This document shows positions 1 to 20,757 of a stretch of 27,375 nt of DNA, one piece after another (positions within the stretch are counted from its first letter, which is position 1; every line of letters begins with the position of its first letter). Position numbers and translations under genes: made by a program. The stretch comes from a virus: the IMG/VR virus record IMGVR_UViG_3300031772_002608, positions 1 through 27,375 of that record. One strand, written 5' to 3'. The notes under the pieces are model-generated. The model had not been told where the DNA came from, made no database searches, and saw only the letters and a list, made by a program, of their open reading frames with translations.

Positions 1-349
1 CACTGAATCGTTTAGATGCTTCTACGGAAGTTTCTCTAATTATTTCACTTCGTTCATTGAATTTTGATAATCTACCAACCGTTTCTAAATAAAACTTTTC
101 TTGGATATCATCTTCGGTATTTGCAATATCACTATAAACATTTGGGTCTTGATGTTTCCAACAATCGATGGAATATAATTTTTTTCCTTTCCATTTGTAT
201 AAAATGTATTCAGATCCTTCCCCAAAGTGGACCCCCACTTCGGCCCCCACCCCATCTATCTGTCCTATTCCCCATTTATTTAATAAAAACCCCATGTCAT
301 GCCTCCAAACACCAGGGCCTATTTCGTTTAATATTTGTTCGTCATTCAT
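1..349 (-). CDS. Class I SAM-dependent methyltransferase, 3' end missing
   Basis: The reading frame opens at ATG 349-347 and stays open for 116 codons to the left edge, so the C-terminal part is outside the window. Residues 34-50 (VGAEVGVHFGEGSEYIL) match the glycine-rich motif I that binds S-adenosylmethionine, and YSIDCW at 59-64 is the following acidic strand. The later text, with RLSKF and an R-E-T-S-x-E-A run, resembles Methyltransf_24-type enzymes common in polysaccharide clusters. It lies 4 bases after the stop of the KdsC-like gene and is the last visible gene of the minus-strand sugar cassette, so sugar or glycan O-methylation is a reasonable inference. The substrate is unknown. The two plus-strand frames here break up the methyltransferase motif and were discarded. 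Confidence 0.72.
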   Translation of the reverse strand, partial: MNDEQILNEIGPGVWRHDMGFLLNKWGIGQIDGVGAEVGVHFGEGSEYILYKWKGKKLYSIDCWKHQDPNVYSDIANTEDDIQEKFYLETVGRLSKFNERSEIIRETSVEASKRFS

Positions 350-353
350 GATT

Positions 354-893
354 TTACTTTCTCTTTTCTTTTTCCGATTTATCTACCTCAAGAAATTCTC
401 GGAATGTACATTCTTTAACCAATCCCTCAATAACAAGTTCATCGTATAGTTCGGATAATACACCGGTTCCTCCTGACCTAGTAAGAGTCTTTTTTGCTAT
501 CCTACGCACATCCAAAGTAGCATCAAATGGGCAGTAAGTATGAATCAATGCCTTCATTATTTCCGTATCTATATAATCGTCTCCTATAAATAGAGTCGTA
601 GATACATTAACTTTATATTTTTCAAATAACATGGGTAAAAAATCCTTTTTGCTCATATAACCACCTGTAGTGTGTGCATGATAGAAGTCGATACTTCGTT
701 TATTTGCTACGGATTCGTTAACATTTTTATCCCCACTCAAAAAACATACAGAAACACCGGACGCTTGTAATTTTTTGATTGCTACAAAATCTTTATCATT
801 GAATTGTTTTGAAATGGATTTACCATCTACATCCGTGACCTTTCTTCCATCTGTCAATACCCCGTCGATATCCAATATTGCTAATTTTATCAT
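354..893 (-). CDS. KdsC-like HAD phosphatase (copy 1)
   Basis: A 179-residue protein of the HAD superfamily, KdsC-like subfamily, which hydrolyses sugar phosphates such as KDO 8-phosphate. Motif I is DIDGVLTDG (residues 8-16), motif II is the SGD of CFLSGDKN, and motif IV is GDDYID with the metal-binding aspartates. FNDKD after motif I is also typical of KdsC. The length fits the family, which works as a cap-less tetramer. It is clearly a paralogue of the gene at 4594-5160, with long shared stretches (DIDGVLTDG, FNDKDF, SGVSVCFLSGDKNVNE). ATG 893 lies 3 bases after the upstream stop. In this cassette it probably dephosphorylates a sugar-phosphate intermediate; the actual sugar is not shown by the sequence. 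Confidence 0.85.
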   Translation of the reverse strand: MIKLAILDIDGVLTDGRKVTDVDGKSISKQFNDKDFVAIKKLQASGVSVCFLSGDKNVNESVANKRSIDFYHAHTTGGYMSKKDFLPMLFEKYKVNVSTTLFIGDDYIDTEIMKALIHTYCPFDATLDVRRIAKKTLTRSGGTGVLSELYDELVIEGLVKECTFREFLEVDKSEKEKRK

Positions 894-896
894 AAA

Positions 897-1634
897 TTAT
901 GTCCAGGGTCTTACAAATTCTATTTTGAAGTTTGGTATGGTGTCGGCCAAAATTCCAAATTGTTTAACTACATCGTGGATTAGAATTTCATTACACACCA
1001 ATCCGTCTCTTTTCATCCCTATGTCATAGGCGGCATCCATAAGATTGTAACAATCTGTGTAAACATTCATATTCTTGGTAGAAGATACAGCGAACCAATC
1101 ATCCAACATGTTAGGCTGCTGACGGTCATGACTAACATGAATTATATTGGGGTCCAACTCCATACAATTTAAAACTCTGGGTATAATAGCATCGAATCTA
1201 CATCTGATGACATAATCATACACAACGTCTTGTTCATATCTATAGATTTCTTTTACTGCATTAGCTTTGTGAATGCTATACCACATACAATGCATCATAT
1301 CTACAAAATAGTCCCTATTAAGATGACTACAAAATCTCTGAATGGTTTTATCTACGTTCCAACTCTTATTCTTGAATGTTTTTTGTTTTTCGAACAAGAA
1401 AGCTTTGGGTTTGTATAGGTTCAACAACAATTCCTCGGTATTTTCTGGAATCTTGTTATTTGGATGATTTGTCCATCCGGTATCATTACGGTAAGATTTG
1501 TTTACATCTTCTTTGGCGAACCAAGTATGAAAGAATACATCTGCACAATTAGGTACAATGAGATTGTTGTAGATATAAGGATATGCCTTTTCTACAAATC
1601 TTGGTTGACCAGATAAACATAATGCTACCCTCAT
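897..1634 (-). CDS. Glycosyltransferase-like protein of the 'SGQPR' type
   Basis: A 245-residue protein opening with RVALCLSGQPRFVEKAYP, an N-terminus I associate with uncharacterised glycosyltransferase-like proteins in phage and capsule gene clusters. A second conserved-looking block is DYVIRCRFDAIIPRVL (around residues 140-155), whose RxRFD resembles the region around the nucleotide-binding acidic residues in GT-A-type enzymes. There is no signal peptide or membrane segment, so it is cytoplasmic. The start overlaps the preceding cupin stop as ATGA, implying coupled translation. The location in a sugar cassette supports a transferase role, but the donor and acceptor are unknown and the assignment rests on the N-terminal motif and context. 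Confidence 0.55.
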   Translation of the reverse strand: MRVALCLSGQPRFVEKAYPYIYNNLIVPNCADVFFHTWFAKEDVNKSYRNDTGWTNHPNNKIPENTEELLLNLYKPKAFLFEKQKTFKNKSWNVDKTIQRFCSHLNRDYFVDMMHCMWYSIHKANAVKEIYRYEQDVVYDYVIRCRFDAIIPRVLNCMELDPNIIHVSHDRQQPNMLDDWFAVSSTKNMNVYTDCYNLMDAAYDIGMKRDGLVCNEILIHDVVKQFGILADTIPNFKIEFVRPWT

Positions 1635-1954
1635 ACTTCGTATTTATCTCCTGGTGCAGACGGAACACGAACCACAATCATGTCAGTATCTTCTAAAAAT
1701 TCCACGTCGGAGATTTCATTTGGTTCATAAATAAATGTATCTCCGGATTTTAAAACGTTTTTGTGGTTTAGTAGAATCATTCCACGGACGATGTAATTGT
1801 ATTCATTAGAAACCTTATGGTAGTGAGGAACCGAAATAAATCCTATAGGATGAAATTGGTGAGATACTTCAAAATCAGTAGTTTTTAGGATAGTAGGTTC
1901 AAAGTTACCAATAAACCAACCATTTTTAAATTTTAAGTCTTGAGTTATTTTCAT
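1631..1954 (-). CDS. Small cupin-fold protein
   Basis: A 107-residue single-domain cupin. The first cupin motif is visible as PHYHKVSNEYNYIVRG (metal-binding His pair, Glu, then Gly) and the second as LKSGDTFIYEPNEISDVEFLED. Stand-alone cupins of this size in carbohydrate clusters are often sugar epimerases, isomerases or ligand-binding proteins. The second motif lacks the usual PxxxxH histidine, having PNEISD instead, which makes metal catalysis doubtful and sensing or binding possible. Both ends overlap neighbours by ATGA, so it is part of the coupled operon. No specific reaction can be given. Confidence 0.7.
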   Translation of the reverse strand: MKITQDLKFKNGWFIGNFEPTILKTTDFEVSHQFHPIGFISVPHYHKVSNEYNYIVRGMILLNHKNVLKSGDTFIYEPNEISDVEFLEDTDMIVVRVPSAPGDKYEV

Positions 1955-2676
1955 TCCATCTCCACTAATTTTCTATTATAGAACACAACATCCGCTTCAG
2001 GTCCGGCATTTCTATTTGCACCATAATCTACAAAATCATAAACCGAAAATCCCAAGTCGTCCATATCTTTTATATCATCTTCCATAATTTGCTGACCTTT
2101 ATATAGAACAATCTCCTTGTTATGACTAGATACACATTCCATTTGTACAAAAAGAATTCTATTAAGATATTCCTTCATACTCTTTACCACATTTATATCA
2201 TTTCCTTGAGTATCAATTTTAACAAAGTGTATTAATCCTTCTTTAAAGTGGGGTATATCTGATAGGATAGAGTGCATCGATGATACACTTACATTCCTTA
2301 TTGTAGTTTTTTGTTCTTTTACTACGGCTAACTGTTCTGATGTTTTTCCGATATACCATTTTTTATCATATTCCGAAACATCTCCCGTCAATGCTTCCAT
2401 ATTCATTGGTAATAATGAATTACATCCAGTCTCGGCGTATTCATGAAATTGGCGGACTTCATCTTTATCCACATTATCCACTGCTTTATTTACGAAAAGA
2501 TTATACTCTCCACCTACACCATGATCACAAGCATCGATACCAAGCCAGAAACTATTTCTTGCTAGTGTACGTTTGAATCCATACATCCACCCAGCTTTGT
2601 GACAACCTACATCTATGATATTTAGATTGGGGTCGGTTAACTGATGTAAATAAGCTGCTACGTTGTCGTAATTCAT
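1951..2676 (-). CDS. FkbM-family methyltransferase
   Basis: A 241-residue class I methyltransferase of the FkbM type. Motif I is NIIDVGCHKAGW (residues 19-30). The family hallmark, the post-catalytic KIDTQGNDINVVKSM block, lies near residue 150, followed by the strand ILFVQMEC. FkbM enzymes O-methylate sugars and other small hydroxylated compounds, and they are common in capsule and LPS clusters. ATG 2676 overlaps the stop of the nucleotidyltransferase-RpiB gene by ATGA. The C-terminus (EADVVFYNRKL) is the usual final strand, so the gene looks intact. Methylation of the sugar made by this cassette is inferred from context. Confidence 0.8.
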   Translation of the reverse strand: MNYDNVAAYLHQLTDPNLNIIDVGCHKAGWMYGFKRTLARNSFWLGIDACDHGVGGEYNLFVNKAVDNVDKDEVRQFHEYAETGCNSLLPMNMEALTGDVSEYDKKWYIGKTSEQLAVVKEQKTTIRNVSVSSMHSILSDIPHFKEGLIHFVKIDTQGNDINVVKSMKEYLNRILFVQMECVSSHNKEIVLYKGQQIMEDDIKDMDDLGFSVYDFVDYGANRNAGPEADVVFYNRKLVEME

Positions 2677-3845
2677 AATGTTTCCAATTTAGATATTCTG
2701 ATTTGATGTCTTCCTCCGTCAAACGTTGCCGACTTCCATGCCAATACTATTTCGTTGAGAGATTTATCACTATTGTATTTAGCCGGTAAAGAAAAGAAAT
2801 TACAACAGTTATGACGAATGGCCATCTCTGCTAGATATCCATCACACACCCAAGCAGAACGAATACCTTTGATTTTATTGGCTGTAATATTCACACCCTG
2901 ACCACTACGACAAAAACCAAATCCAAAATTACAGTGTCCGTTTACAACCGATTCGGTAGCCGAACGAACATATTCGTAATAATCCCTATCGATGTTTTTA
3001 TCATGTACACCGAAATCTACAAATGATATTCCGTGGTCAGCCAATTTTTGTTTAAACAATTCCTTTGTTTCAAATCCTGAATGATCACTACATAATGCTA
3101 CAGTATGTTTTTTACTTGGCCAAGTTCTGAGACTGTTATTAACAAAAAATCTCAATTCTTCAGGAGTTCCAAACACATGCATTTTTTCTACTGGTTTAGT
3201 AAGAATTTTACAGTCTTTTTCAATAAAGATATTATAGAGAGGACAGATAAAAAATTCATTATTGGTTCGGATATTTCTTTGAATCATATCCTTAGCATAT
3301 TTAACAAAGTCACTTCCTTTTCTATACCAATAGATTCCCACGGCAGCGTTTGGACTAATAACCTGTTTTTCTGCGGTTTTGGTGACTAGAGATTGTTCAT
3401 TTAATTCGACGTAACTATAATTCTTACTATTCGATTTAAAAGTAAGTATCACACCATCAGTATCTACAGAATCGAATTGAGACGGATCGAACTTGGGTTC
3501 AAAATAAATATCTGAACAATGAATGATAAGAGGTAAATCATTATTGATATATTCCTCGGCCAATAAACACGAACAAACCGCTCCGTCTGTGGTCTTATCA
3601 ACAGGAATAATAGTTACATCATTTCCGAACCGAGTTTTTAGATATCCATCGATGTTGAAATCAACGATGTGTTCTTTTCTAACTATGAAAATGATATTAC
3701 ACTCAGAATGATCAACACAATCCATCGTCCATTCTATGATAGAACGGTTATCTACAAGAATTAGGGGTTTTGGAAGAAAATAATTTTCTTTTACGAATCT
3801 ACTTCCTAAACCAGCAATAGGAATTAACAAATTGTATTTCTTCAT
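2673..3845 (-). CDS. Fusion: sugar nucleotidyltransferase + RpiB/LacAB sugar-phosphate isomerase
   Basis: A 390-residue two-domain protein. Residues 1-240 form a Rossmann-like nucleotidyltransferase with the signature IAGLGSRF (10-17) and the phosphate-contacting lysine in LPKPL (24-28). Residues 247-390 are a complete RpiB/LacAB-family isomerase: ALCSDHSGFETKE (250-262), the catalytic cysteine in GFCRSGQG (Cys312), ANKIKGIR (322-329), RHNCCN with the ring-opening histidine (His345), and the C-terminal GGRHQIRISKL. RpiB-type enzymes interconvert aldose and ketose phosphates (ribose 5-P, allose 6-P, galactose 6-P). The fusion implies that the isomerised sugar is fed into nucleotide activation. 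Neighbours are a PfkB-type kinase and an FkbM methyltransferase, with ATGA overlaps on both sides. The nucleotide used is not evident. Confidence 0.85.
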   Translation of the reverse strand: MKKYNLLIPIAGLGSRFVKENYFLPKPLILVDNRSIIEWTMDCVDHSECNIIFIVRKEHIVDFNIDGYLKTRFGNDVTIIPVDKTTDGAVCSCLLAEEYINNDLPLIIHCSDIYFEPKFDPSQFDSVDTDGVILTFKSNSKNYSYVELNEQSLVTKTAEKQVISPNAAVGIYWYRKGSDFVKYAKDMIQRNIRTNNEFFICPLYNIFIEKDCKILTKPVEKMHVFGTPEELRFFVNNSLRTWPSKKHTVALCSDHSGFETKELFKQKLADHGISFVDFGVHDKNIDRDYYEYVRSATESVVNGHCNFGFGFCRSGQGVNITANKIKGIRSAWVCDGYLAEMAIRHNCCNFFSLPAKYNSDKSLNEIVLAWKSATFDGGRHQIRISKLETL

Positions 3846-4597
3846 AACTTATATTTTTTGACTAAAAACTCGTAAGCATTTTCGTGTGCAAATCGTATCG
3901 ATTCTTCTTTAGAATGACTTTTCATATATCGTTGAATAAATGAAACACAATACGCATCACCTGCTCCTAATATACAAATATCATCGTCTAATGGAATTGG
4001 ATTTTTTATATGTTTAAATCTTGCTTCACATTTATCCCAGAATGTTGTTCCTTCTGGAGAATGAATTATGGATTTAAATCGAAATTCATCAGGAATTTTA
4101 TTTGATTCTGTATCAGAAGTTATGATAAAATCCACCCAATTAAATATTGATGGGTCATAACGAAAATTGGCTCCACAAAAATCTATAGAAACTATTCCAG
4201 CCACATCATGCATAGGAAATATATCTTCAGCAACAAGATTTGGTAATGCGTCTATATAAGATATATGATGCCATCGTGATTGTTCGTGAACCAAATTTTG
4301 AGTATTTAATTTAGCATCACATCCCCATTTCACACAGCTAGATTTTCTTCTTTTTCCATCCTTTTTGTCAATAATCACTACTGCACTAGAAATGGGGTCG
4401 TCTTCTGACGGAGATACATATTCTACACAAAATTTTAAATCTAATGATGTAGAAGTTATGGCATCTACGTGATTTCCAATTCCTCCTACTGAGTTTATTA
4501 CCCTACAATCATTATTGGGCTGACCAATGATAAACTCTTTGTCATATAAACAAATTGTATCATTAATCTTATTTCCGTATAGAATTAAGTCTTTCAT
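3842..4597 (-). CDS. PfkB/ribokinase-family sugar kinase
   Basis: A 251-residue protein with the two PfkB hallmarks: an N-terminal GGIGNHVDA block (residues 38-46) and the C-terminal GAGDAYCVSF block (211-220) with the catalytic aspartate (Asp214) and the anion hole. It is short for the family (usually about 300 residues), mainly in the middle. Family members phosphorylate ribose, fructose 6-P, tagatose 6-P, heptose 7-P and nucleosides. Placement directly before the nucleotidyltransferase-RpiB fusion and after a KdsC-like phosphatase suggests one step of a sugar-activation route, as HldE or HddA kinase does in heptose pathways or LacC in the tagatose pathway. The substrate is not predictable. 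Confidence 0.8.
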   Translation of the reverse strand: MKDLILYGNKINDTICLYDKEFIIGQPNNDCRVINSVGGIGNHVDAITSTSLDLKFCVEYVSPSEDDPISSAVVIIDKKDGKRRKSSCVKWGCDAKLNTQNLVHEQSRWHHISYIDALPNLVAEDIFPMHDVAGIVSIDFCGANFRYDPSIFNWVDFIITSDTESNKIPDEFRFKSIIHSPEGTTFWDKCEARFKHIKNPIPLDDDICILGAGDAYCVSFIQRYMKSHSKEESIRFAHENAYEFLVKKYKL

Positions 4598-5160
4598 TTT
4601 TTTAACGCGGTCATAGATTCTATTTTATCAATCTTTACTACATCCTTAAATTCGGCTGGTATAATCAAATGTTTTCTAACCAAATCTTCATATAAATCTG
4701 AAACTACGCCTTCGCCGCCTTTCCGTTCTAATACTCCATTACACGATGCTTTACACCAAAGTTTAATATCATAAATTGCATCACTGGGACAATATGAATA
4801 TTTAACTTTCAAAATGATATCTAAATCGAATAAATCATCTCCGACATATACTGTAGTATCTTTATTGGCTCCGTATTTATCATATAAAAGAGGAAGAAAT
4901 GAACTCTTATCCAAAGAACCGTCAGCAGATCTTGAAAAATAAAAATCGATCCCCCTTTTATTAGCTATTTCTTCGTTTACATTTTTATCTCCGCTCAAGA
5001 AACAAACCGATACTCCCGAGGATTTCAGTCTCTTAATTGCAGTAAAATCTTTATCATTAAATCTTTTATGAGAAACTTTGCCTTCACTGTCATAAGATTT
5101 TGTCCCATCGGTCAGAACTCCATCAATATCAAGAATGACTAATCTTATCGGGTGTATCAT
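4594..5160 (-). CDS. KdsC-like HAD phosphatase (copy 2)
   Basis: A 188-residue HAD phosphatase counted from ATG 5160. Its start (MIHPIRLVILDIDGVLTDG) lines up with the start of the paralogue at 354-893. An upstream ATG at 5205 would add 15 unrelated residues and enlarge the overlap with the GDPD-like gene from 32 to 77 bases, so I prefer 5160. Motifs are DIDGVLTDG, FNDKDF, the SGD of CFLSGDKNVNE, and GDDLFD. The two copies are most alike in the catalytic half and differ in the C-terminal third, so they may act on different sugar phosphates. Its stop overlaps the PfkB kinase start by ATGA. There is no clear Shine-Dalgarno at either candidate start. Confidence 0.83.
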   Translation of the reverse strand: MIHPIRLVILDIDGVLTDGTKSYDSEGKVSHKRFNDKDFTAIKRLKSSGVSVCFLSGDKNVNEEIANKRGIDFYFSRSADGSLDKSSFLPLLYDKYGANKDTTVYVGDDLFDLDIILKVKYSYCPSDAIYDIKLWCKASCNGVLERKGGEGVVSDLYEDLVRKHLIIPAEFKDVVKIDKIESMTALKK

Positions 5161-5608
5161 ATAATTGGTATTTATATCTTTCAATAAAGTCGCTACAGAT
5201 TCCATAACATTGTTTTAAGTCTCCGTTGATTCCTAATTCAGGAAGAACGCATACAGACATAGGAATAAGATGTTTTGTAGAATGAACCCATATAACTCCT
5301 CTTGAGGTTATGGTATAATCATCATGCTGGTGCCAAAAGAAGTGACAGTGATTGCTATGTTCTCTAAAATAATTCAATGCGTCGGAATTTTTGGCATGAC
5401 ACCAAAACATAGGATTCATCAAATAGTCTAAATTAACAGGATGTTGTGGTTCATCATGACCCAACCACCATTTCCCTGTAGGCAATCTCCAAACGTCAAT
5501 TTCTACATCAAATCCTAACCTTAAAGCTTCTACAATATAAGAAGGTTTATTTTCTTCCGTAAGATTGATGCCGTGTACGTTTCCTCGGTGGGAAATCATT
5601 TTTATCAT
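5129..5608 (-). CDS. Compact glycerophosphodiester phosphodiesterase-like (GDPD) protein
   Basis: A 159-residue protein of the PLC-like phosphodiesterase/GDPD superfamily. The family's catalytic and metal-binding elements appear in order: SHRG (residues 6-9), a TEENKPSY equivalent of the usual ENT, VEIDVW with the Glu-x-Asp pair, and LGHDEP with the second histidine. Typical GDPDs are about 230-250 residues, so this one lacks much of the C-terminal barrel; similar short forms occur in capsule clusters. GDPD enzymes release glycerol phosphate and an alcohol such as choline or ethanolamine. ATG 5608 overlaps the upstream stop by ATGA; a second Met (residue 4) is an alternative start. Its role in the cassette is unclear. 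Confidence 0.68.
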   Translation of the reverse strand: MIKMISHRGNVHGINLTEENKPSYIVEALRLGFDVEIDVWRLPTGKWWLGHDEPQHPVNLDYLMNPMFWCHAKNSDALNYFREHSNHCHFFWHQHDDYTITSRGVIWVHSTKHLIPMSVCVLPELGINGDLKQCYGICSDFIERYKYQLYDTPDKISHS

Positions 5609-5997
5609 ATTTCAATATCTTCCATTCCTTTATTTCTTACCAGATTAATGGCTACAGCCATAGGTTCGTCACAATCTGTCTTTAAATCATTAATAAGAAT
5701 TCTCTGGCCACCGCCAATACCCATTACAAGTTGGTCATAACTAATACCTAATTTAAATAATTGCTTTTCTGTAGCTTCACGTAGGGATTCCCTTCTTCCG
5801 GTGGTCAATATGATATTATATCCCTTATCTTCCCATTCTTGTAATTTTTCTCTTACGCCAGGTAAAATATTCGGAGGTAGGATATAGGTTTTTTCATTAA
5901 GAGTAGCCAATAGAGGTTCGATTCCGCCGGCATGAGTTAATAGAGTCCCGTCTATATCACAGAAGATGGTTTTTTTAGTTGTAGGTGATAATGTCAT
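5605..5997 (-). CDS. Small HAD-superfamily phosphatase
   Basis: A 130-residue HAD hydrolase of a different subgroup from the two KdsC-like copies. Motif I is FCDIDGTLL (residues 12-20), motif II is LTTGRRES (around 63-70), and the C-terminal motif is GGGQRILINDLK, an arrangement seen in short HAD proteins of polysaccharide clusters and resembling polynucleotide-kinase-type phosphatase domains. There is no cap domain. The start ATG 5997 lies inside the end of the GatZ-like gene (23-base overlap in another frame). A sugar-phosphate substrate is likely from context only. Confidence 0.75.
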   Translation of the reverse strand: MTLSPTTKKTIFCDIDGTLLTHAGGIEPLLATLNEKTYILPPNILPGVREKLQEWEDKGYNIILTTGRRESLREATEKQLFKLGISYDQLVMGIGGGQRILINDLKTDCDEPMAVAINLVRNKGMEDIEI

Positions 5998-6961
5998 GTA
6001 TTCTCTCTTTCATTTTTGATTTTATATCATCATCCAATATTCTTAGATTCGAACGAACTTTTCTGTCGAATTCATCAGAGGAAAAAATGTAATGTCCACA
6101 GATTTTGATAAGTCTTTCTTTGTCGTTTACATCAAAAGAGGAATCAACCCATTTTTTCCACATATTAGACTTGTAACATAAGCTATATAACACATCCAGC
6201 AGTATCGGGTCAACTTGTTTTATTTCATTAATATAACATTCTGTCTCCATCATACCAAATTCAGGAGCAATGTTTATAGAGTCCAATCCTAGTTTAAACT
6301 TTTTATGAATCAATTCGGAAGGTAGATAATCTCCGTTGTGTTCTTTGGAGTGAAGGTTATAATCTTTACATCTATTTATATCCTTCATTAGTCTTCGTTC
6401 GTCAAAATTTCCGGTTTGAATATTTTCTTTCAAAGATGTACCAGATTGAATAACCGAATACAAGATTCTATTAAAAACTTTGCCTGGAATAGATGAATAA
6501 ACAAAAGAAAGCAATTCAATAAAGTCATCATGAGAAATTTTTCGTATAGCTTCTTCGGTTCCGATTTCAAATAGAATGTGAGGATTATCTATTCTACACA
6601 ACCAATAGACAGTTTCTTTTAAACAGTCACGAAAAGGTATATTTAATTTCCAGGGGTCAATGTGAATCATATCGAAACATTCATTATCCATCATAAACGA
6701 TTCAACTCCGTCGTCACTCGATGCTCCCTGTTGTGGACCTCCGTGATCTCTTTCTAAAGTTACTAAATTGGTTTTGGAATGAACATAATTAGTGAAAGTT
6801 GGAGTATTCCAATGATTGACATATCCTCCGTTGTAATCTATTTGTCGTCTGGAAGGAATCAATCCTAAAGGAGTATCATTCTCGTTGGCATACTCTATCA
6901 CCGCATCTACAGTATTTTTAGAAACGGGTCCAACATACAATTTAGGCAATCGGTAATTCAT
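5975..6961 (-). CDS. GatZ/KbaZ-like (tagatose-bisphosphate aldolase-type) TIM-barrel protein
   Basis: A 328-residue protein from ATG 6961. Sequence near the start (LGLIPSRRQIDYNGGYVNHW, residues 32-51) and the block LERDHGGPQQG (69-79), followed by DMIHIDPWK (97-105) and FEIGTEE (131-137), resemble the class II aldolase non-catalytic subunit family GatZ/KbaZ and related barrels. The Asp-His of RDHGGP sits where this superfamily has its catalytic or metal-binding group. An upstream in-frame start at 7030 would overlap the AroE-like gene by 89 bases and add residues unlike a barrel start, so 6961 (20-base overlap) is preferred. No GatY-type catalytic partner is visible, so it may be an aldolase or isomerase of unknown sugar specificity. 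Confidence 0.62.
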   Translation of the reverse strand: MNYRLPKLYVGPVSKNTVDAVIEYANENDTPLGLIPSRRQIDYNGGYVNHWNTPTFTNYVHSKTNLVTLERDHGGPQQGASSDDGVESFMMDNECFDMIHIDPWKLNIPFRDCLKETVYWLCRIDNPHILFEIGTEEAIRKISHDDFIELLSFVYSSIPGKVFNRILYSVIQSGTSLKENIQTGNFDERRLMKDINRCKDYNLHSKEHNGDYLPSELIHKKFKLGLDSINIAPEFGMMETECYINEIKQVDPILLDVLYSLCYKSNMWKKWVDSSFDVNDKERLIKICGHYIFSSDEFDRKVRSNLRILDDDIKSKMKERIHDIITYN

Positions 6962-7580
6962 ATCCTGTATATAGTTTAAATTGTTCTCTTGCTTGATATA
7001 CAAAGAACTCATGTCCTGTAGGGGTGTCAACCAAACAATCTATGTAAGTATTATTCTTTACATCCAAATCAACAGGAGTACAATTAAAAATGATCTTATC
7101 TGTATATTTAAACACATTATTAATCATTTGTCTATTTAAAATAACAAATTTGACTTTTCTTTCAATACAAGCTGCTTGATATGATTTGGATAGTCCACCA
7201 GAACCTAAGATGTAAACAGGTTCATTGTCAGGATTGTAAATTCCCAACATTCTATAGGCAGCAACGAAATCAGTATTGAACCCAATCATCTTATCGTCTT
7301 TGAAAATGATGGTATTCAAAGACCCACATCTTTCTACGGTAGTATCTAATTCATCTACATACTCGCATGCAGTCACTTTAAATGGCATTGAAATTCCACA
7401 CCCACTGAATTTTAGTGTTTTTGCAGCCAACAATGCATCATAGATGTTTCCTATAGAAAACGAACGATAAATTGCATTGATATTATATATTTTGAAATAC
7501 TCATTGAAGAATTTACACCCATTGTTTCCGGCATTCAATGAGAACGAACCATATAATTTGGTTTCTTTATTTATTTGCAT
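6942..7580 (-). CDS. Shikimate dehydrogenase-like (AroE-fold) protein
   Basis: A 212-residue protein from ATG 7580. The N-terminal substrate domain reads LYGSFSLNAGNNGCKFFNEYF. It is followed by GCGISMPFK, the equivalent of AroE's G-x-N-V-T-x-P-F-K with the catalytic lysine, then CGSLNTIIF and GFNTDFVAAY, the conserved NTD with the catalytic aspartate. The dinucleotide domain has YILGSGGLSKS, a glycine-rich GxGGxxK/S loop. AroE is usually about 270 residues; this version is shortened after the NADP loop. The start overlaps the upstream fusion gene by 14 bases (ATGCAAATAAATAA). A role in aromatic synthesis is unlikely in this context. AroE-fold oxidoreductases also act on other polyols, so a sugar-related dehydrogenase is inferred. 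Confidence 0.72.
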   Translation of the reverse strand: MQINKETKLYGSFSLNAGNNGCKFFNEYFKIYNINAIYRSFSIGNIYDALLAAKTLKFSGCGISMPFKVTACEYVDELDTTVERCGSLNTIIFKDDKMIGFNTDFVAAYRMLGIYNPDNEPVYILGSGGLSKSYQAACIERKVKFVILNRQMINNVFKYTDKIIFNCTPVDLDVKNNTYIDCLVDTPTGHEFFVYQAREQFKLYTGYELPIA

Positions 7581-9468
7581 GCAACATTTCAATTCCCTTA
7601 CACCATAAAGTTTTTCCAAATGATTCATCATGTAATGGAGCCATATTAATGAAAATCAAACCCGTCATTGTTTTTATGGTTTTTAAATACACTCCATGTT
7701 TTTCTGCCCACAAATCAAACAATTGATTCAACTCTATTAAATTCTTCGTAGTTGTAATGGAATAATTTATTTGAGGGAAGGATTCAGTAAATTTCAAATT
7801 TTTATTATCCTTCATCTTATCATAAGATATCAATAGACCACCATATAGTTTTGCTATATCGTAATACAAGTCTCCGTGGTCTGTATTTCCAGCAAAAGAC
7901 TCTCGCCAATCTAAATAATAGAATTTAGTCGTGATTTCATCATATACAATGTTATCAAACTGTAAATCTCCGTGGAATGCTTTATATCCAATATTACCTT
8001 TGAAATCAAATGGTTTCTCCATGATACTTTTCAACGAAGGAAAGATGTCACCGTTTATTAAAAGTGATTCAGTATAATACTTTTCTCCATATTTGGATAT
8101 GAATGCAGAGATTCTATCAGAGGTTTTAACTCCATAAAAATCTGACATATTTTGTGCACTCAATACTATTGGCTCCTTTGGTTCTTCAACAAAGGTATCC
8201 ATAAATTGTTTATAGAGTTCTAGGTTGTCGTGTTTATAGAGAGTTTTTCCATTCACCCAATCATAAGAGATGAAATGTTTTGTGGATTTGAAACGGTGAG
8301 GAATTTTCCCTCCTAAGTGTAAACCACGTTCTACACGATTCGTGGTAACAGATTCATTACAATTGAATTTTAAGAATTTATCATTTACATGATAGGTGAA
8401 CTCTCCTACATCCTTGGATAAAGATAAGGGTGGAACTCCTAATATCATCTGTGTCTTATTGAAATCGTCTAGGTTTCCCAAGTCAAACCACTCCAAAACT
8501 TTGATTTTTAATTGTGGATACTTGGATGCATTATACCACGCAGAAACCAATTCTCCGTTTTGTATAGCGGATGACAAACAATCCCAAAATACTTGATAAT
8601 CTCGTATGGCAGCAAGGCCAATAAAGGCCATATCAAATCCATCCGATTTCTTGTTTACAAGGGATAATACATCTCCGCTTTTTGTAGATTCTACCGTTGA
8701 ATATTTTTCAGGATAAGCCGTAGGATATACTCCTAACCAATTTCCATCCAATTGAGGTAAATCTACCGAAATTAGACAATCAGCGGTAACAATATAAAAT
8801 GGTCGCTGCAATAAGGATTTACATTGTAGTGCAGAATATCCCGGTCCTGTTCCTTCTCCTTCGAATTTATCAACATCAACGTATGTTATTTTTCTGTCAC
8901 TATGGGCAAGGTCACAATACTCCTTTAAACTTTCGGAAAGATGACCTACAGCTATAACAACATCATATTCTGTTGGAAACTTTTCTATAATATGAGATAT
9001 GACAGCTTTTTCTCCCAGTGGAACGAGAGACTTATTGACGTGTTTAGTTAATTTCTGTAATCGTGTTCCTAATCCAGCAGAAAGAATAAGAACAGCAGGA
9101 ACTTGGTGTTCACCATCTATCTTTCCGTCTTTTCTATTAGAATCATCATCTAATCTAATAACATCATCTACCTCCGGTGTAGATACTTCTTGAAGAATAA
9201 TATCCGACAAAGCAATTACTCGATGCTTTTTTGGTGGAGTAACATTGAAAAAGTCTCCTGCCTTCATAAGCTTTTTCTCTACTATTCCATTATCGTTTTC
9301 TAACCACACTTCTGCTTCTCCAGAAATGATATAGTTTGTTTCACGTTTGAAATTGTGATATTGAAAGCTGGTTTTGTATCCGGCGTTAATGTAAATTCGT
9401 TTGTAACAATAACGGTCGTTTAATTCTAACCATTCTTCTTTTCCCCACGGTTTATAAACTGTTTTCAT
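7567..9468 (-). CDS. Three-domain fusion: cupin + nucleotidyltransferase + APH/choline-kinase-like kinase
   Basis: A 633-residue protein from ATG 9468, preceded by AAGGA four bases upstream; a GTG at 9483 is less likely because it would overlap the GT2 stop. Residues 1-105 are a cupin resembling the C-terminal domain of mannose-6-P isomerase/GDP-mannose pyrophosphorylase (KPWGKEEW, FQYHNFKRETNYIISG). Residues 126-345 are a nucleotidyltransferase (LSAGLGTRLQKLT, NKSLVPLGEKAVI, and YIVTADCLI at the metal site). Residues 360-633 resemble aminoglycoside phosphotransferase/choline kinases: the catalytic loop HGDLQFDN (499-506) and the metal aspartate in YYLDWRE (Asp520). The last two domains recall the LicC and LicA pair. 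It probably phosphorylates and nucleotide-activates a sugar or an alcohol; which one is unknown. Confidence 0.83.
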   Translation of the reverse strand: MKTVYKPWGKEEWLELNDRYCYKRIYINAGYKTSFQYHNFKRETNYIISGEAEVWLENDNGIVEKKLMKAGDFFNVTPPKKHRVIALSDIILQEVSTPEVDDVIRLDDDSNRKDGKIDGEHQVPAVLILSAGLGTRLQKLTKHVNKSLVPLGEKAVISHIIEKFPTEYDVVIAVGHLSESLKEYCDLAHSDRKITYVDVDKFEGEGTGPGYSALQCKSLLQRPFYIVTADCLISVDLPQLDGNWLGVYPTAYPEKYSTVESTKSGDVLSLVNKKSDGFDMAFIGLAAIRDYQVFWDCLSSAIQNGELVSAWYNASKYPQLKIKVLEWFDLGNLDDFNKTQMILGVPPLSLSKDVGEFTYHVNDKFLKFNCNESVTTNRVERGLHLGGKIPHRFKSTKHFISYDWVNGKTLYKHDNLELYKQFMDTFVEEPKEPIVLSAQNMSDFYGVKTSDRISAFISKYGEKYYTESLLINGDIFPSLKSIMEKPFDFKGNIGYKAFHGDLQFDNIVYDEITTKFYYLDWRESFAGNTDHGDLYYDIAKLYGGLLISYDKMKDNKNLKFTESFPQINYSITTTKNLIELNQLFDLWAEKHGVYLKTIKTMTGLIFINMAPLHDESFGKTLWCKGIEMLHANK

Positions 9469-9469
9469 A

Positions 9470-10183
9470 TTATCCTTGACCACGGTTCTCTGATTCAGTA
9501 AATGTTTTTTGGTAGTTTAAATTAGTAGCAACTTGTAGTTCGATGGTTTTATCATGATACAAGGCATATTCTTCTTCTTTAGGGAGAACTACATATTGAA
9601 TGAACCCATCAATTTGTTCGTGTAATTTTTTCTTCCATTTAATACGAGGATAGTCATTTTTGAATATTCGTCCTTGATAATCACCTGTATTCCAATTGAC
9701 CAGCGGACGTTGTAATGTAGGAGACATAGATAAATTCCATCCCCATTGTTTTGCATGTTCTTCTGTCACTCCTTTGAAATCATTGACTCTAGGAATCCAA
9801 AATAATTCTGCTCCAGGATTGCTTCCTATAAGTAATTTAAGATTTTCTCCCAATAACGTCTCCGGAGGAAGTTCATCTCCGTCTATTTGAAAAATGAAAT
9901 CTCCAGAGCAATTTTCTACACCATAATTTTTATGAGCACCATAATCATTGTTTAGGGGATGAACTATGGATTTGAAGTTAGTTTTTTCCAATATACAATT
10001 TGGATGGCAAATAAATGTTCCTACGGTTTCGTATGATGGAGCACCAATCTTATCATGCAACGTATCTATTAGAATTACAACCTCGTCGGTAGGCACCGAA
10101 GAAATAGCATTATTTAGAGTCCACAATAGATTCTTTAATGTTTCCGACTCGGTACTACATGTAACTAAGTAACTTATTTTCAT
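9470..10183 (-). CDS. Family 2 glycosyltransferase
   Basis: A 237-residue GT-A-fold transferase. The N-terminus MKISYLVTCSTESETLKNLLWTL follows the GT2 opening strand and helix. The acidic nucleotide-sugar and metal site is IFQIDGDELPP, preceded by GAHKNYGVENCSGDF, the usual N-x-G-x-x-x-A-x-G-D pattern. KWKKKLHEQIDG near residue 185 resembles the C-terminal His-containing loop. It has no membrane helix, so it acts in the cytoplasm. One base separates its stop from the start of the fusion gene. Members transfer an activated sugar to glycans, lipids or proteins; the acceptor is unknown here. Confidence 0.82.
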   Translation of the reverse strand: MKISYLVTCSTESETLKNLLWTLNNAISSVPTDEVVILIDTLHDKIGAPSYETVGTFICHPNCILEKTNFKSIVHPLNNDYGAHKNYGVENCSGDFIFQIDGDELPPETLLGENLKLLIGSNPGAELFWIPRVNDFKGVTEEHAKQWGWNLSMSPTLQRPLVNWNTGDYQGRIFKNDYPRIKWKKKLHEQIDGFIQYVVLPKEEEYALYHDKTIELQVATNLNYQKTFTESENRGQG

Positions 10184-10201: not shown

Positions 10202-11548
10202 TTAAACTGCTGTTGGTGGTGTCAGTTTAGTTAATTGTGGCAATTCCACTTTTTTGAGTTTTGGAAGCACCAATTTTTGTTCGACAGCAAACGTAGGAAC
10301 GTATTTATCAAATACTGAGTGTAATACCTTATCCATAGATTCCATCGAAAACTTCTGTTCGTTCTCAATTCTTAACTGTTCAGCCTTATCTACGAATGCC
10401 CCATGATGATATAATACATTTTTGAATGCATCGGCGGCGTTATTGTAGTTTACATTGAACCAGCCCGATTCTGCAATCAACCATTCATTTACAGATTCTC
10501 CAGGAATTTGTTTGACTTCACCCTCAAGCAATTTACAAAATTTTGGATTTAAGAAATCCAAATGTCCACTCCAATTAGGAACTATCAGTGGTTTTCCACT
10601 TAATGAGGATAATAAGAGAGGATGACCATAACCTTCTCCGTGAGTAAATGATGTATGAACTTTGACTTTTTTGTGGTTGTATAGAGAATTCATTTCTGCA
10701 TCAGTCAAACATCCATAAATCAAATAAACATTAGGCAATTCATTTACTTTATCAGGCGAACCAGCAATATTTTCTCGGATAGCCTTCACTTTAGCTATCA
10801 TATCATATTTGTCCATATTACAGATTGCAGCTCCACTGGTTTTAAGTAAAAGAGCAGGACGAGTATTGATATCTTTCCAATTACGGAAAGTTTCAGAGAA
10901 AGTTTTGATAAGATTACCGATATCTTTTCTATCTCCGAAGAGATTTCCGCTAGTCCACTGACCAACAAACAAAAAACAAAATTCTTCAGGAATCGAAGAC
11001 ATCACCGAATCTATTGTAGGCGAAGATTCATCTGTCTTTTTATAAACCTTAGTGTCGGCTCCCCAAAATACAACTTCCATCGGCTTTTCGGATTTTAATT
11101 GAACAGGAGGTTGATTAGCAGTATTTTTTGTATAAGATGCTCCCTCAAGGACATTCTTAGAATGAACTGAAGTAACGATATTCATATTCATTCGATTCAA
11201 TCCCTCTATCCAGTCTCCTTTAGCAACAGTCGTCTCAATACCCGCAGTCATTCCGATGTTAAATTTTGCTAGAGGTTGAAACTCTGGAGGAATAGAACAT
11301 TGGATATAAAGTTCAGGTTGTCTTGGTAGTTGTGAACGCAATATCTTTGAGAACAATGTCTTTTCTTCTACATCAGTGACTTCATTCATAAGATGTTTAC
11401 GATTGCATCCTCCCCAACGAGTAGGAATAAGATGTAAATCGAATTTATCATAACGAACTAAGCTTTTGGCTACTGCCATTGCCCAATCACCATATCCACT
11501 TCTTGTCCAGAGTGGAGCCTGAAATACACAAATAGGTTTATTACTCAT
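10202..11548 (-). CDS. GT4-type (GT-B fold) glycosyltransferase
   Basis: A 448-residue GT-B enzyme. The N-terminal glycine-rich acceptor loop is WTRSGYGDWAMAVA (around residues 14-27). The donor-site motif HTSFTHGEGYGHPLLLSSLSG (around 300-320) contains the E-G-x-G-x-P-L-L-L pattern equivalent to the GT4 E(x7)E region, followed by PLIVPNWSGHLDFL. Unlike many GT4 proteins, the second glutamate position is a serine (LLSSLSG), which may reduce or alter retaining activity. The stop lies 18 bases before the GT2 gene, and the start overlaps the Cys-rich small gene by ATGA. It is one of two GT-B enzymes in the block; the donor is unknown. Confidence 0.82.
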   Translation of the reverse strand: MSNKPICVFQAPLWTRSGYGDWAMAVAKSLVRYDKFDLHLIPTRWGGCNRKHLMNEVTDVEEKTLFSKILRSQLPRQPELYIQCSIPPEFQPLAKFNIGMTAGIETTVAKGDWIEGLNRMNMNIVTSVHSKNVLEGASYTKNTANQPPVQLKSEKPMEVVFWGADTKVYKKTDESSPTIDSVMSSIPEEFCFLFVGQWTSGNLFGDRKDIGNLIKTFSETFRNWKDINTRPALLLKTSGAAICNMDKYDMIAKVKAIRENIAGSPDKVNELPNVYLIYGCLTDAEMNSLYNHKKVKVHTSFTHGEGYGHPLLLSSLSGKPLIVPNWSGHLDFLNPKFCKLLEGEVKQIPGESVNEWLIAESGWFNVNYNNAADAFKNVLYHHGAFVDKAEQLRIENEQKFSMESMDKVLHSVFDKYVPTFAVEQKLVLPKLKKVELPQLTKLTPPTAV

Positions 11549-12466: not shown

Positions 12467-12510
12467 ACTATAATGTAATCTATATACCTTATATTTGTAA
12501 AGTATTTATA
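12467..12510 (-). promoter_or_regulatory. Possible promoter region before dUTPase
   Basis: The 44-base gap between two minus-strand genes is very AT-rich. On the minus strand it carries TATAAATA (12510-12503), identical to the T4 late-promoter core, and TATAGT (12472-12467), a good -10 look-alike only 5 bases before the dUTPase ATG. There is no convincing -35 at the right distance for the latter. The same TATAAATA string also occurs inside coding sequence elsewhere in this AT-rich window, so chance is a real possibility. No hairpin terminator was seen here. Confidence 0.22.
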
Positions 12511-13987
12511 CTACAATTTTTTCGATTTCAGATTTAAGTTTTTCTAAATCTATTCGGGGAATCTCAAACCCCATGTTTCCAGGCATTGTATGACCAACAT
12601 AATCTTTGTCGGTAAATAAACCAACATTTTTTACAGGTCGGAATTTTTCTAATGTATAATCCATACAAGTAACAAATTGATTACACATGTTCTCGGAATT
12701 AAGTCCGCCTTCATTCAATGACCACTGACGGCCTTTTAATCCACAAGCAATTCTTTTTTCTGGACCCATTACATACCAATACATGAGAGCTTCTGCGGCA
12801 TCTTCCCATTTAGCAATATCATCAAAAATATAAGGTGTAGGAATAGAACCCTGTACACATCTGACGGCCGGCCATACTGGTTTTGCCCAACATCCATGAC
12901 GACGATATTTACCACAACTATTAGAACCAAAATCTCTGTCAAAGACAATCGGAGAACCATCATCTTTAACTTGACCAATCTGGTCTTGTAATCCTCCTGT
13001 TGCTGCAACTACTATAGGAGTGCCTGCCATAATAGATTCTGCGGTCGAAAGTCCGAATCCTTCGTTGGATGACAAATTGATAGTTACATCAGCCATGTTA
13101 TACAAGAAATTCATATCTTCCGGAGACAATCTAGCCGTTGAGAATACGACATCATATTCAGGACAGAATGCTTCTTTAACAGCAACCAAATCCGTACCAG
13201 CATCTTGTCTTGGTTCGGTATGAAGAACCAATACACACTTCTTGGCTTCTTCTTTTGATAAATTATCACAAAACGTCTTATATGCTAAGAGTATGTTACT
13301 GGTACGTTTACGTTGAACGTTTCTGCTATTATAGAATACACAAAAATCATATTGTTTGCCGCCAAAAATTTCTTTCTTCTTCTTTAAGAGAAGTGGTTCA
13401 TCTTTTTGGAAAGGTTTGAAGACTTTTGCATTAATTCCATGAGGAACGTAATGTATTAAAGTTTTTCCGTTCATTTCCTTGTCTTCTACGGTACAACAAT
13501 TTTCTGGATTCATTACCCATTTATTAATGTTGTAGGTTTGCTTACTAATCGACATCAATAAGTCACAGGATTCGTAGAAAGGTCGATTGTACATCGGATA
13601 AGGAATATCATCCCAAATATTGAGATAGGTCAATGGAACGAAAGTTCTAATTTGTCTTTCGATGGCATATAACCAAGTCCAGAAACGTGGGTCGGTAAAA
13701 TGCATGATTGCATCAGGCTTTTCTTTATCAAGAATGTTGAAGAGAATATCTTCATTACCATATCCATCTACAGGATAAAGTGTCAACTTGGCATCTTTTA
13801 CTCCAGTCGATTGAACACATGCTGTGTCCATGTTAATGATTTTTCCGGCTTCCGGATGTTTGATGGCTCCAGCGAGTTGAACCCAATCATATCTATGAAG
13901 GGTTCCTAAAACCATTTCTCTGGACATAGTGGCAATACCGCTATGCATTCTAAGATCGTCTGATAGTAACAATATTTTCTTTTTCAT
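12506..13987 (-). CDS. GT4-type (GT-B fold) glycosyltransferase
   Basis: A 493-residue protein from ATG 13987 (MKKKILLLSDDLRMHSGIA); a GTG at 14029 would add 14 residues and overlap the ribbon-helix-helix gene, so it is not preferred. The N-terminal loop SDDLRMHSGIATMSREM is the GT4 acceptor-side glycine loop. The nucleotide-binding half contains VFYNSRNVQRKRTSNILLA and the donor motif SSNEGFGLSTAESIMAGTPIV, a textbook GT4 E-G-F-G-x(3)-E block with both glutamates. GGLQDQIG follows. It is therefore more orthodox than the GT-B enzyme at 10202-11548. It is separated from the sugar cassette by dUTPase and a small gene. Donor and acceptor are unknown; virion, DNA or host-surface glycosylation are all possible. 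Confidence 0.85.
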   Translation of the reverse strand: MKKKILLLSDDLRMHSGIATMSREMVLGTLHRYDWVQLAGAIKHPEAGKIINMDTACVQSTGVKDAKLTLYPVDGYGNEDILFNILDKEKPDAIMHFTDPRFWTWLYAIERQIRTFVPLTYLNIWDDIPYPMYNRPFYESCDLLMSISKQTYNINKWVMNPENCCTVEDKEMNGKTLIHYVPHGINAKVFKPFQKDEPLLLKKKKEIFGGKQYDFCVFYNSRNVQRKRTSNILLAYKTFCDNLSKEEAKKCVLVLHTEPRQDAGTDLVAVKEAFCPEYDVVFSTARLSPEDMNFLYNMADVTINLSSNEGFGLSTAESIMAGTPIVVAATGGLQDQIGQVKDDGSPIVFDRDFGSNSCGKYRRHGCWAKPVWPAVRCVQGSIPTPYIFDDIAKWEDAAEALMYWYVMGPEKRIACGLKGRQWSLNEGGLNSENMCNQFVTCMDYTLEKFRPVKNVGLFTDKDYVGHTMPGNMGFEIPRIDLEKLKSEIEKIVV

Positions 13988-14009
13988 ATTAGATATAACT
14001 TTTTTGGGT

Positions 14010-14219
14010 TTATGAACCGAAAGATCCACTGTGGCTTAATTTTGGAATAACAAATTCATCTACGACTGATTGAAATGAATCTTTGATTAGATATAGATTA
14101 ACACATCGTTCGACGAACGTTTGTAAAGTTAATTTCTTCCTAACTGTTTTGATTTTGAAGTCGTCGTATAAGTTGTTTTCCAACTTTACCGTTGTGGCTA
14201 TTCTTGTGTCTTTTTTCAT
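14010..14219 (-). CDS. Ribbon-helix-helix (Arc/CopG-like) DNA-binding protein
   Basis: A 69-residue protein. Residues 8-13 (ATTVKL) form a likely DNA-contacting beta strand, followed by helix ENNLYDDFKIKTVRKK, a turn at LTLQ, and helix TFVERCVNLYLI. This is the classic order and spacing of the dimeric ribbon-helix-helix fold. The C-terminal 20 residues (VIPKLSHSGSFGS) are a flexible-looking tail. It probably acts as a small transcriptional repressor. A perfect 14-base inverted repeat lies 8-21 bases upstream of its ATG, suggesting self-regulation. There is no Shine-Dalgarno. Confidence 0.7.
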   Translation of the reverse strand: MKKDTRIATTVKLENNLYDDFKIKTVRKKLTLQTFVERCVNLYLIKDSFQSVVDEFVIPKLSHSGSFGS

Positions 14220-19238: not shown

Positions 19239-19239
19239 A

Positions 19240-20043
19240 ATGATCATAAAGGTAATAGATAATCTAACTGCATTGGAATTGATATTCAATAACCATTACA
19301 GTAAGATTATGCCTCGTTTAACTAAACATTGTCTCGGAGCATACGAAAATGATAAATTAGTTGGTATATTGACTTTGGGGTGGGGTACCAGACCATTACA
19401 TACTATTAAGAAATTGTTTCCTTCATTGACAAGTAAGGACTATTTTGAAATAGGTAAAATGTGTATGTTAGAATCCATGCCTAAGAATTCCGAGTCACAA
19501 CTCTTATCTGCAACAATTGATTGGATAAAAAAGAATCAACCACAGATAAAAATCCTTTTTACTTGGGCCGATGGAATATTAGGGAAGCCAGGATATGTCT
19601 ATCAATCGGCTAACTTGCTTTACGGAGGATTCATCTGGACCGACTTGTATATTACTGCCGAAGGAGAAAAAGTTCATCCAAGGACATCGCAAGGATTAAC
19701 GAACAAAGGAGATAAAATTTGTGGTCACAGACCAACTAAAGATTTCATGATTAAAAACGGATGGAATCATTACAAAGGCAAACAATTCCGTTATTTATAT
19801 TTTCTATGCAACAAAATAGAAAAAAAGAAATTATTGACAGTATCAACAGTTCAGTGGACTATAGATTATCCCAAGAGTAAAGATTTGGAATGGCAAATAC
19901 AAGACCTGACTACCAGAGAATGGAAGTTCACCGATAATATTCTTTACAATAAAGAAGCAGTGAGTGTAGCCAATAAAAAAGTTACATCAAATACTAATAA
20001 GATTGAAATTGTTAAAACTGCTAGACAATTCTTTGAATTTTAA
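19240..20043 (+). CDS. Mom-like GNAT-fold protein, possible DNA adenine-modification enzyme
   Basis: A 267-residue protein from ATG 19240. The pattern HYSKIMPR, GAYENDKLVGILTLGWGT, EIGKMCML, and then ADGILGKPGYVYQSANLLYGG (around residues 109-129), RTSQG and KGKQFRYLYFL matches the Mom family, as in phage Mu, which converts adenine in DNA to N6-methylcarbamoyl-adenine and protects against restriction. Many phage GNAT-like proteins of this type are unstudied, so the reaction is inferred. After the catalytic part (up to about residue 195) a tail follows, ending KTARQFFEF, nearly the same as the polymerase C-terminus. This suggests attachment to the sliding clamp and modification behind the fork. 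It starts one base after the polymerase stop. Confidence 0.65.
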   Translation: MIIKVIDNLTALELIFNNHYSKIMPRLTKHCLGAYENDKLVGILTLGWGTRPLHTIKKLFPSLTSKDYFEIGKMCMLESMPKNSESQLLSATIDWIKKNQPQIKILFTWADGILGKPGYVYQSANLLYGGFIWTDLYITAEGEKVHPRTSQGLTNKGDKICGHRPTKDFMIKNGWNHYKGKQFRYLYFLCNKIEKKKLLTVSTVQWTIDYPKSKDLEWQIQDLTTREWKFTDNILYNKEAVSVANKKVTSNTNKIEIVKTARQFFEF

Positions 20044-20044
20044 T

Positions 20045-20308
20045 ATGAAAACATCTGATTATCCATACGGTAGAGTAACCAAGACATTGAAAAAGGCGGC
20101 CGCATATCTCAATAGAAATTATAAATCCATTATCAATGAGTCGTTTAAATTGGAGCCGGATTTAACTTACGATGATATTGCTCATTCATTTGATTATCCA
20201 TGTTATTTAGATATGCCTAAATCCATATTCGGTAGATTAAATACTGATGAAGTCGATTGGTTACAGGAAGGATGGTTCGATTTAGTTGAAAGGCATAAAA
20301 AGAAATGA
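20045..20308 (+). CDS. Hypothetical small protein
   Basis: An 87-residue protein from ATG 20045, one base after the stop of the Mom-like gene. It begins MKTSDYPYGRVTKTLKKAAAYL; the middle (LEPDLTYDDIAHSFDYPCYLD) is acidic and aromatic and the end is basic (ERHKKK). I recognise no domain. It is linked to the next gene by an ATGA overlap, so it belongs to the replication operon. No Shine-Dalgarno. Function unknown. Confidence 0.6.
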   Translation: MKTSDYPYGRVTKTLKKAAAYLNRNYKSIINESFKLEPDLTYDDIAHSFDYPCYLDMPKSIFGRLNTDEVDWLQEGWFDLVERHKKK

Positions 20309-20757
20309 AAATATTATTTTTAGATATAGACGGTGTTCTTAATCGACTCAAACCACAAAGAAACGGATACTGTGGTTTTGACCCAATTTGTGTAGAAAAT
20401 TTGAATTATGTATTGTTGACTATACCCGACCTTTATATTGTCATATCATCTTCTTGGAGATACATGATATCTCCCAGAACTATGACATTAGAAGGATTTG
20501 AATTCATGTTATTAGCAAGTGGAGTTTGTTGTAAGGCGAGAGTTGCTGGTGCCACAGTTCGGGATGATGCTATTCCAGAAAGATCGGACCAAGTTAAACA
20601 TTGGTTGGATACTCATCCAGAAGTCACCAAACACTTGGCATTAGATGATATGTGTTGGGAATTTGGTTCACGAAATGTAATTTCTCTAAGAACAGATTCA
20701 CATGTTGGATTGACGGAAAAAGAATCAAAACAAATTATTAATCACTTTAAATCATGA
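20305..20757 (+). CDS. HAD domain protein of the 'Swiss army knife' RNA-repair type
   Basis: A 150-residue protein opening MKILFLDIDGVLNRLKP (HAD motif I, nucleophile Asp7, acid/base Asp9). VISSSWR (around residues 46-52) is motif II with the phosphate-binding serine, and LALDDMCWEF (around 112-121) is the C-terminal aspartate motif. The LDIDGVLN plus SSSWR combination fits the HAD subgroup first described as a domain of RNA-repair proteins and frequent as a stand-alone phage protein. A phosphatase on nucleic-acid ends or nucleotides is plausible. Its start and stop both overlap neighbours by ATGA. Confidence 0.75.
   Translation: MKILFLDIDGVLNRLKPQRNGYCGFDPICVENLNYVLLTIPDLYIVISSSWRYMISPRTMTLEGFEFMLLASGVCCKARVAGATVRDDAIPERSDQVKHWLDTHPEVTKHLALDDMCWEFGSRNVISLRTDSHVGLTEKESKQIINHFKS

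Follow-up and report, generated by a model that had tools for sequence, protein, structure and literature searches.

The sugar enzyme genes at 354–9483 (minus strand) of the virus record IMGVR_UViG_3300031772_002608 form two independently conserved modules, A and B, and not one pathway. The record, a complete 27,375-bp IMG/VR entry that is itself a fragment, was analysed over its whole length (hereafter the window). It is probable that each module makes its own nucleotide-activated sugar for the neighbouring glycosyltransferases. Families were placed with Pfam, NCBIfam and PHROGs profiles; viral contigs, which are metagenomic fragments, were collected via three alignments and their gene orders were then read by profile search. 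The genes of the two modules are listed below, with the nucleotidyltransferase domains named NTP1 and NTP2 and fusions marked by a double colon.

Module A:
5129..5608, minus strand: GDPD-like protein (no Pfam match; motif conserved in homologues)
4594..5205, minus strand: KdsC-type HAD phosphatase, HADb (profiles, residues, gene order)
3842..4597, minus strand: small PfkB-family sugar kinase, 251 aa (fold by model, catalytic Asp)
2673..3845, minus strand: RmlA-type nucleotidyltransferase (NTP1)::RpiB/LacAB isomerase fusion, 390 aa (profiles, residues)
1631..1954, minus strand: small cupin, cup107 (profile match, residues)

Module B:
7567..9483, minus strand: cupin (PMI type II-like)::RmlA-type nucleotidyltransferase (NTP2)::APH-type sugar kinase, 638 aa (Pfam MannoseP_isomer, NTP_transferase); probable ATG start at 9468
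6942..7631, minus strand: AroE-like dehydrogenase, an optional member (closest solved relative HI0607 SDH-L, 1npy)
5975..6961, minus strand: GatZ-like barrel, predicted ketose (phosphate) C4-epimerase (residues, structure model); open reading frame (ORF) listed from 7030, likely start 6961
5605..5997, minus strand: small HAD phosphatase, HADc (profile, gene order, homology to RB69 ORF051c)

The genes are intact and co-linear in a single minus-strand run, and 4-bp overlaps join most of those of module A (5605–5608, 4594–4597, 3842–3845, 2673–2676, 1951–1954, 1631–1634). The first-pass annotation had described this run as one coupled operon; the ORFs, their strand and the mostly 4-bp overlaps were found as described, but the run consists of two units. 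Among the loci examined, only this record and the related contig IMGVR 3300019458_000191 (L006, and its copies) had both modules, and module A was present without a GatZ-like gene in about 70 distinct viral loci. The order KdsC-type HAD, PfkB, NTP::RpiB is near invariant among viruses: for the 72 distinct viral fusions, PfkB lay directly upstream in 70 and a KdsC-type HAD within four genes in 67, with the GDPD-like gene nearby in 57 and the cupin in 54. In module B, the APH kinase was found within four genes of the GatZ-like gene in all 107 distinct viral loci, and HADc, the cupin and AroE stood within the same distance in 101, 99 and 48, respectively. So that the partner gene would not bias selection, sets retrieved by means of a single gene were recounted after removal of near-duplicates, which gave PfkB near the fusion in 24/25, APH near GatZ in 63/63 and GatZ near NTP2::APH in 41/43. 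Such repetition of gene order across dozens of viral contigs is far more than chance would give. A megablast search against phage sequences returned no matches.

When catalytic residues were counted over 45–110 homologues per family, they were invariant or nearly so; the departures were the second metal Asp of NTP1, Lys279 of GatZ, Glu136 in some GatZ-like proteins and an Arg beside the RpiB Cys. In all 12 genes compared between the window and L006, change was mostly synonymous (non-synonymous, pN, 0.08–0.27; synonymous, pS, 0.61–0.79; dS is saturated in this comparison and the ratios are rough). We therefore rejected the idea of decayed or remnant genes, given that the residues are kept and pN is well below pS in 12/12 genes. 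In related viruses the cluster likewise appears as an ordered unit and not as scattered remnants.

The RpiB domain of module A exceeded the TIGR00689 cut-off (108.1 versus 88.3 bits) and fell under the equivalog cut-offs of LacA (50.5 versus 181 bits) and LacB (42.6 versus 313 bits). Its catalytic Asp, His, Cys base, second His and two Arg were kept in 68/68 sequences, and the Arg beside the catalytic Cys, a departure from the usual residues, was invariant. The fold modelled for the PfkB-like protein is that of ribokinase/ketohexokinase (TM about 0.7), the catalytic Asp of its GAGD motif (D214) was kept in 72/72, and a gene at the matching operon position of a bacterial contig, L038, scored 34.2 bits with PfkB. 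The two KdsC-type HADs of the cluster reached 77.5 and 74.2 bits, below the TIGR01670 cut-off of 106.95, and retain the catalytic Asp residues. The HR, E-x-D and H motif of the GDPD-like protein was invariant in 81 homologues, as were H44, H46 and E51 of cup107 in 60. The Synechococcus phages SynMITS9220M01 and Bellamy carry module A beside glycan genes.

In module B, the HxDxxxxN...D motif of the APH kinase was invariant in 110 homologues and both metal Asp residues of NTP2 were invariant; NTP2 also gave a weak MurU match (35.8 bits, far under the equivalog cut-off of 250), and the APH profile found no match in the PDB. The AroE-like protein keeps K85, N106 and D121, as in the shikimate dehydrogenase superfamily, in 48/48 homologues, and remained under the cut-offs of AroE (88.5 versus 200 bits) and PRK12550 (108.7 versus 306 bits). 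Directly after module B, downstream of HADc, very long ORFs (1331–1494 aa) were seen in the contigs L104, L059, L064, L072 and L069; that of L104 has, by eye, a cytidylyltransferase-like start.

From its model and residues, the GatZ-like protein looks more like the ketose 4-epimerases than the aldolases. The AlphaFold model (pLDDT 94) matched the GatZ/KbaZ-type structures best (2fiq, Z 29.8; 3txv, Z 28.2), then tagatose 4-epimerase (9kcs, Z 25.0) and the tagaturonate epimerase UxaE (6il9, Z 24.8), whereas class II aldolases ranked lower (best Z 21.7); a PDB sequence search with this protein alone gave no match. Escherichia coli GatZ and KbaZ are reported to be fructose-6-phosphate C4-epimerases with a predicted D87/H88/E171/H257 chemistry (PMC11907403). 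The equivalent D72, H73 and H208 are present in 107/107 GatZ-like proteins and E136 in 102, with Asp in the other five. The window protein thus has the fold and the D/H/E/H active-site set of E. coli GatZ/KbaZ and UxaE, and differs from them in being shorter (about 320 aa), in having Asn for Lys279 and in its biosynthetic neighbourhood. It is not listed at the curated score of Pfam PF08013, and we filed it as a relative, not a member, of GatZ/KbaZ; its counterpart in a Bacteroidota locus, L299, passes that cut-off (39.9 versus 26.7 bits).

These results bear out the families named by the first-pass annotation, here placed as RpiB/LacAB, a PfkB-like protein (weakly), AroE-like and GatZ-like proteins and three HADs, two KdsC-type and one small, as well as two nucleotidyltransferase domains, two cupins, an FkbM methyltransferase and GT2/GT1 enzymes. 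Two elements are additional to it: the GDPD-like protein at 5129–5608 and, at the C-terminus of the 638-aa protein, an APH-type sugar kinase domain. The observation itself is therefore confirmed, and a viral sugar-activation cassette with isomerase–kinase–phosphatase–nucleotidyltransferase logic that fits no standard pathway is supported; the interpretation as a whole holds in part.

The genes of module B have a counterpart outside these contigs. HADc and the APH kinase have sequence homologues in the RB69-type arabinose locus, in which an isomerase and ORF053c/052c were proposed to make UDP-arabinose, with the biochemistry called unclear (PMC6024577); a 2026 study described the full arabinose-donor pathway as still uncharacterised and noted a kinase and a nucleotidyltransferase (PMC13390438). 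The profiles of the module B viruses gave 48.5 bits with RB69 ORF052c (APH) and 52.9 bits with ORF051c (small HAD), and across the Straboviridae 36–53 bits for APH and 53–63 bits for HAD. Among the controls, SrkA, itself of the APH family, gave no match, and HisB reached 21.8 bits against 53–83 bits for the HAD. ORF053c scored 54.1 bits with the NTP2 profile, a match that is not specific. ORF051c (NC_004928, L304:3709–4095) has no Pfam match and is annotated as 'phosphoheptose isomerase'; relatives in L305, L306, L307 and L311 match the small HAD profile of module B, and several carry the same annotation. In phages of Acinetobacter, Proteus, Pseudomonas, Klebsiella and Escherichia, NTP::APH is a single ORF and the HAD comes next; several of these phages also have a SIS isomerase upstream, and in S-SRM01 the SIS, NTP::APH and HAD genes lie within a glycan cluster.

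The RB69-type locus thus resembles module B in having NTP::APH and, after it, a small HAD that belongs to the same family as HADc, with a gene for a sugar isomerase next to them. It differs in having a SIS gene (ORF055c, with ORF053c/052c as NTP::APH and ORF051c as HAD) where module B has GatZ and a cupin, no SIS gene having been found in the window cluster, and in lying with thymidylate synthase-family genes and a DNA polymerase rather than with glycan genes. The matches suggest that ORF051c is the missing phosphatase of the arabinose-donor route, a prediction that could already have been published.

We also looked for the modules in bacteria. A Holophagaceae contig from a metagenome-assembled genome (MAG) (L038, 65–70% GC) carries GDPD, HAD, PfkB, NTP::RpiB and cupin genes in the order of module A, the GDPD, HAD and cupin being identified from sequence and profiles. 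Among Bacteroidota, the locus L299 carries a KdsC-HAD, a GatZ-like gene, a glycosyltransferase-like gene, a cupin and NTP::APH, and L300 has a KdsC-HAD, HxlB, Rpe and NTP::APH, with HxlB and Rpe exceeding their cut-offs and standing where GatZ stands in module B. This replacement fits an upstream epimerisation of a ketose phosphate; a shift of the ketone from C2 to C3 with inversion of the adjacent carbon could also invert C4. We rejected the idea that NTP-RpiB is common in bacteria: a scan of genomes yielded seven loci, two with the full fusion (L037 and L038), and L038 alone looks bacterial. The fusion was found in 1/396 Acidobacteriota genomes and NTP2::APH in 2/395 Bacteroidota genomes. 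L037 (PACT01000001.1, a Crocinitomicaceae MAG) has an NTP-RpiB 91% identical to that of SynMITS9220M01 and has every sign of being a cyanophage contig that was binned into a Bacteroidota MAG.

For the substrates, the order of steps, the products and their destination we infer the following. In module A the RpiB domain would turn a ketose phosphate into an aldose phosphate, PfkB would phosphorylate C1, the KdsC-type HAD would take off the distal phosphate and NTP1 would form the nucleoside diphosphate sugar (NDP-sugar), as in a heptose-like bisphosphate route. The same isomerase–kinase–phosphatase–nucleotidyltransferase logic is found in the GDP-D-glycero-D-manno-heptose pathway (HddC), from which module A differs by its RpiB-type isomerase, PfkB kinase and KdsC-type HAD and by the fusion of NTP1 to the isomerase. 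In module B the GatZ-like protein would epimerise a ketose phosphate at C4 by retro-aldol/aldol chemistry, the cupin may act as an isomerase and yield an aldose, the small HAD would strip the phosphate, the APH domain would re-phosphorylate the free sugar at C1 and NTP2 would form the NDP-sugar; AroE, where present, would contribute a redox step. Here the documented parallel is MupP (HAD)–AmgK–MurU (PMC5371407) of anabolic MurNAc recycling in Pseudomonas, with a HAD phosphatase, an anomeric kinase and then a nucleotidyltransferase; module B has the last two fused and an epimerase added.

More tentatively, and with our confidence falling just short of an even balance, HADc and NTP::APH may be a portable core that dephosphorylates, re-phosphorylates at C1 and nucleotidylates, shared by aquatic viruses, T4-like phages with arabinosyl-cytosine, a cyanophage and the polysaccharide clusters of bacteria. 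The core would be reusable, with an interchangeable upstream isomerase or epimerase (SIS; HxlB and Rpe; GatZ and cupin) deciding which sugar enters. On this view the arabinose-donor route of RB69 would use ORF051c as its phosphatase and ORF053c/052c as its kinase-transferase, and module B would lead to a C4-epimeric rare sugar, e.g. NDP-talose or another tagatose-derived sugar.

The most likely destination of the sugars is a host surface glycan, because the neighbours are glycosyltransferase-, methyltransferase- and GDP-mannose-dehydratase-like and cyanophage glycan clusters are known (PMC7824862). Those lipopolysaccharide/capsule clusters likewise bring together phage cupins, PfkB kinases, nucleotidyltransferases, HADs and glycosyltransferases; section 22 of that study names nucleotidyltransferases of the HIGH superfamily and neither of these two modules. 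In the window, the remaining genes of the cluster and its flank are:

9470..10183, minus strand: GT2 glycosyltransferase, presumed user of an activated sugar (profile match)
10202..11548, minus strand: GT1-type glycosyltransferase (weak match, 15.7 bits)
12506..14029, minus strand: GT4/GT1-type glycosyltransferase (matches Pfam 'GT4-conflict')
1951..2676, minus strand: FkbM-family methyltransferase, variable member of the cluster (profile match)
897..1634, minus strand: putative glycosyltransferase of the phrog_13607 type, function weakly supported (profile match)
354..893, minus strand: second KdsC-type HAD, HADa (paralogue of HADb, 51% identity)
2..349, minus strand: cut ORF at the window edge, methyltransferase-like by eye (no Pfam match)

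Several other uses of the genes were considered. Decoration of the phage DNA, as in the arabinosyl-cytosine phages, is unlikely: the homology of HADc and the APH kinase to a locus linked to DNA arabinosylation speaks for it, as does a thymidylate synthase-family gene on the L006 contig, but such genes are absent from 9 of the 13 records searched, the window included (many of them fragments), the frequent neighbours of GatZ are, read by eye, GDP-mannose-dehydratase-, glycosyltransferase- and methyltransferase-like, and module A lies within cyanophage glycan clusters. We consider it less likely again that virion proteins or tail structures are decorated; module B stands beside very long ORFs in several loci, but this adjacency is not general, and in the window none of the genes beside the cassette was recognised as encoding a virion protein. 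A slimmer chance still is that the modules act in series, GatZ supplying tagatose 6-phosphate to RpiB, PfkB, HAD and NTP1 for a galactose-type NDP-sugar. GatZ relatives do make this LacAB substrate (PMC11907403) and the modules are adjacent in the window and L006, but each module has a phosphatase, kinase and nucleotidyltransferase of its own, and all the other loci examined have just one of the two modules. A catabolic tagatose-6-phosphate route feeding host or virus, to which the first-pass annotation had likened the LacAB, LacC and GatZ families that are indeed all in the locus, is very improbable and was rejected as a single pathway since the modules are apart in nearly all other loci, with GatZ a part of module B, RpiB/PfkB a part of module A and the two meeting only in this lineage; in addition, the GatZ-like protein resembles a ketose 4-epimerase, the RpiB domain is under the LacA and LacB cut-offs, nucleotidyltransferases are fused in both modules, and no LacD/GatY aldolase was found among the scanned proteins of the window, the record being a fragment.

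Several observations weigh against two working modules that supply a surface glycan. The PfkB-like protein is short and scores 18.6 bits, below the Pfam cut-off of 25.8; NTP1 lacks the usual second metal Asp and has Met-His in all homologues; GatZ Lys279 is Asn in 107/107 GatZ-like proteins; cupN lacks one His of the usual cupin motif; and the NTP2 profile fails to separate its own members from generic RmlA-type enzymes. The role of the GDPD-like protein and that of the cupins as isomerases are guesses, and no flippase or polymerase was found within the window.

In the literature searched, most subscription journals lying outside its coverage, we found no description of either module, and we regard them as a new variant of the known phage sugar clusters. 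Both recur in dozens of viral contigs, are rare among the bacterial genomes sampled and predict concrete enzymes, among them a missing phosphatase of arabinose-donor synthesis in T4-like phages. If the two-module reading is true, it defines how these viruses make unusual sugars to mask surfaces or DNA.

As for the virus itself, the closest relative of the B-family DNA polymerase of the window is that of Microcystis phage Mel-JY01 (42% identity), and photosystem genes, taken as a host marker, were present in one of ten contigs, which carries module A. A Mom-family protein (adenine modification) is encoded at 19228–20043 on the plus strand (163 bits), and the virus may modify its own DNA bases independently of the sugar genes. 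Also clustered on the plus strand are genes for a Macro domain, NUDIX, HAD_SAK_2 and two nucleoside 2-deoxyribosyltransferase-like proteins (21466–22023, 20754–21182, 20305–20757, 24052–24771 and 25237–25590).

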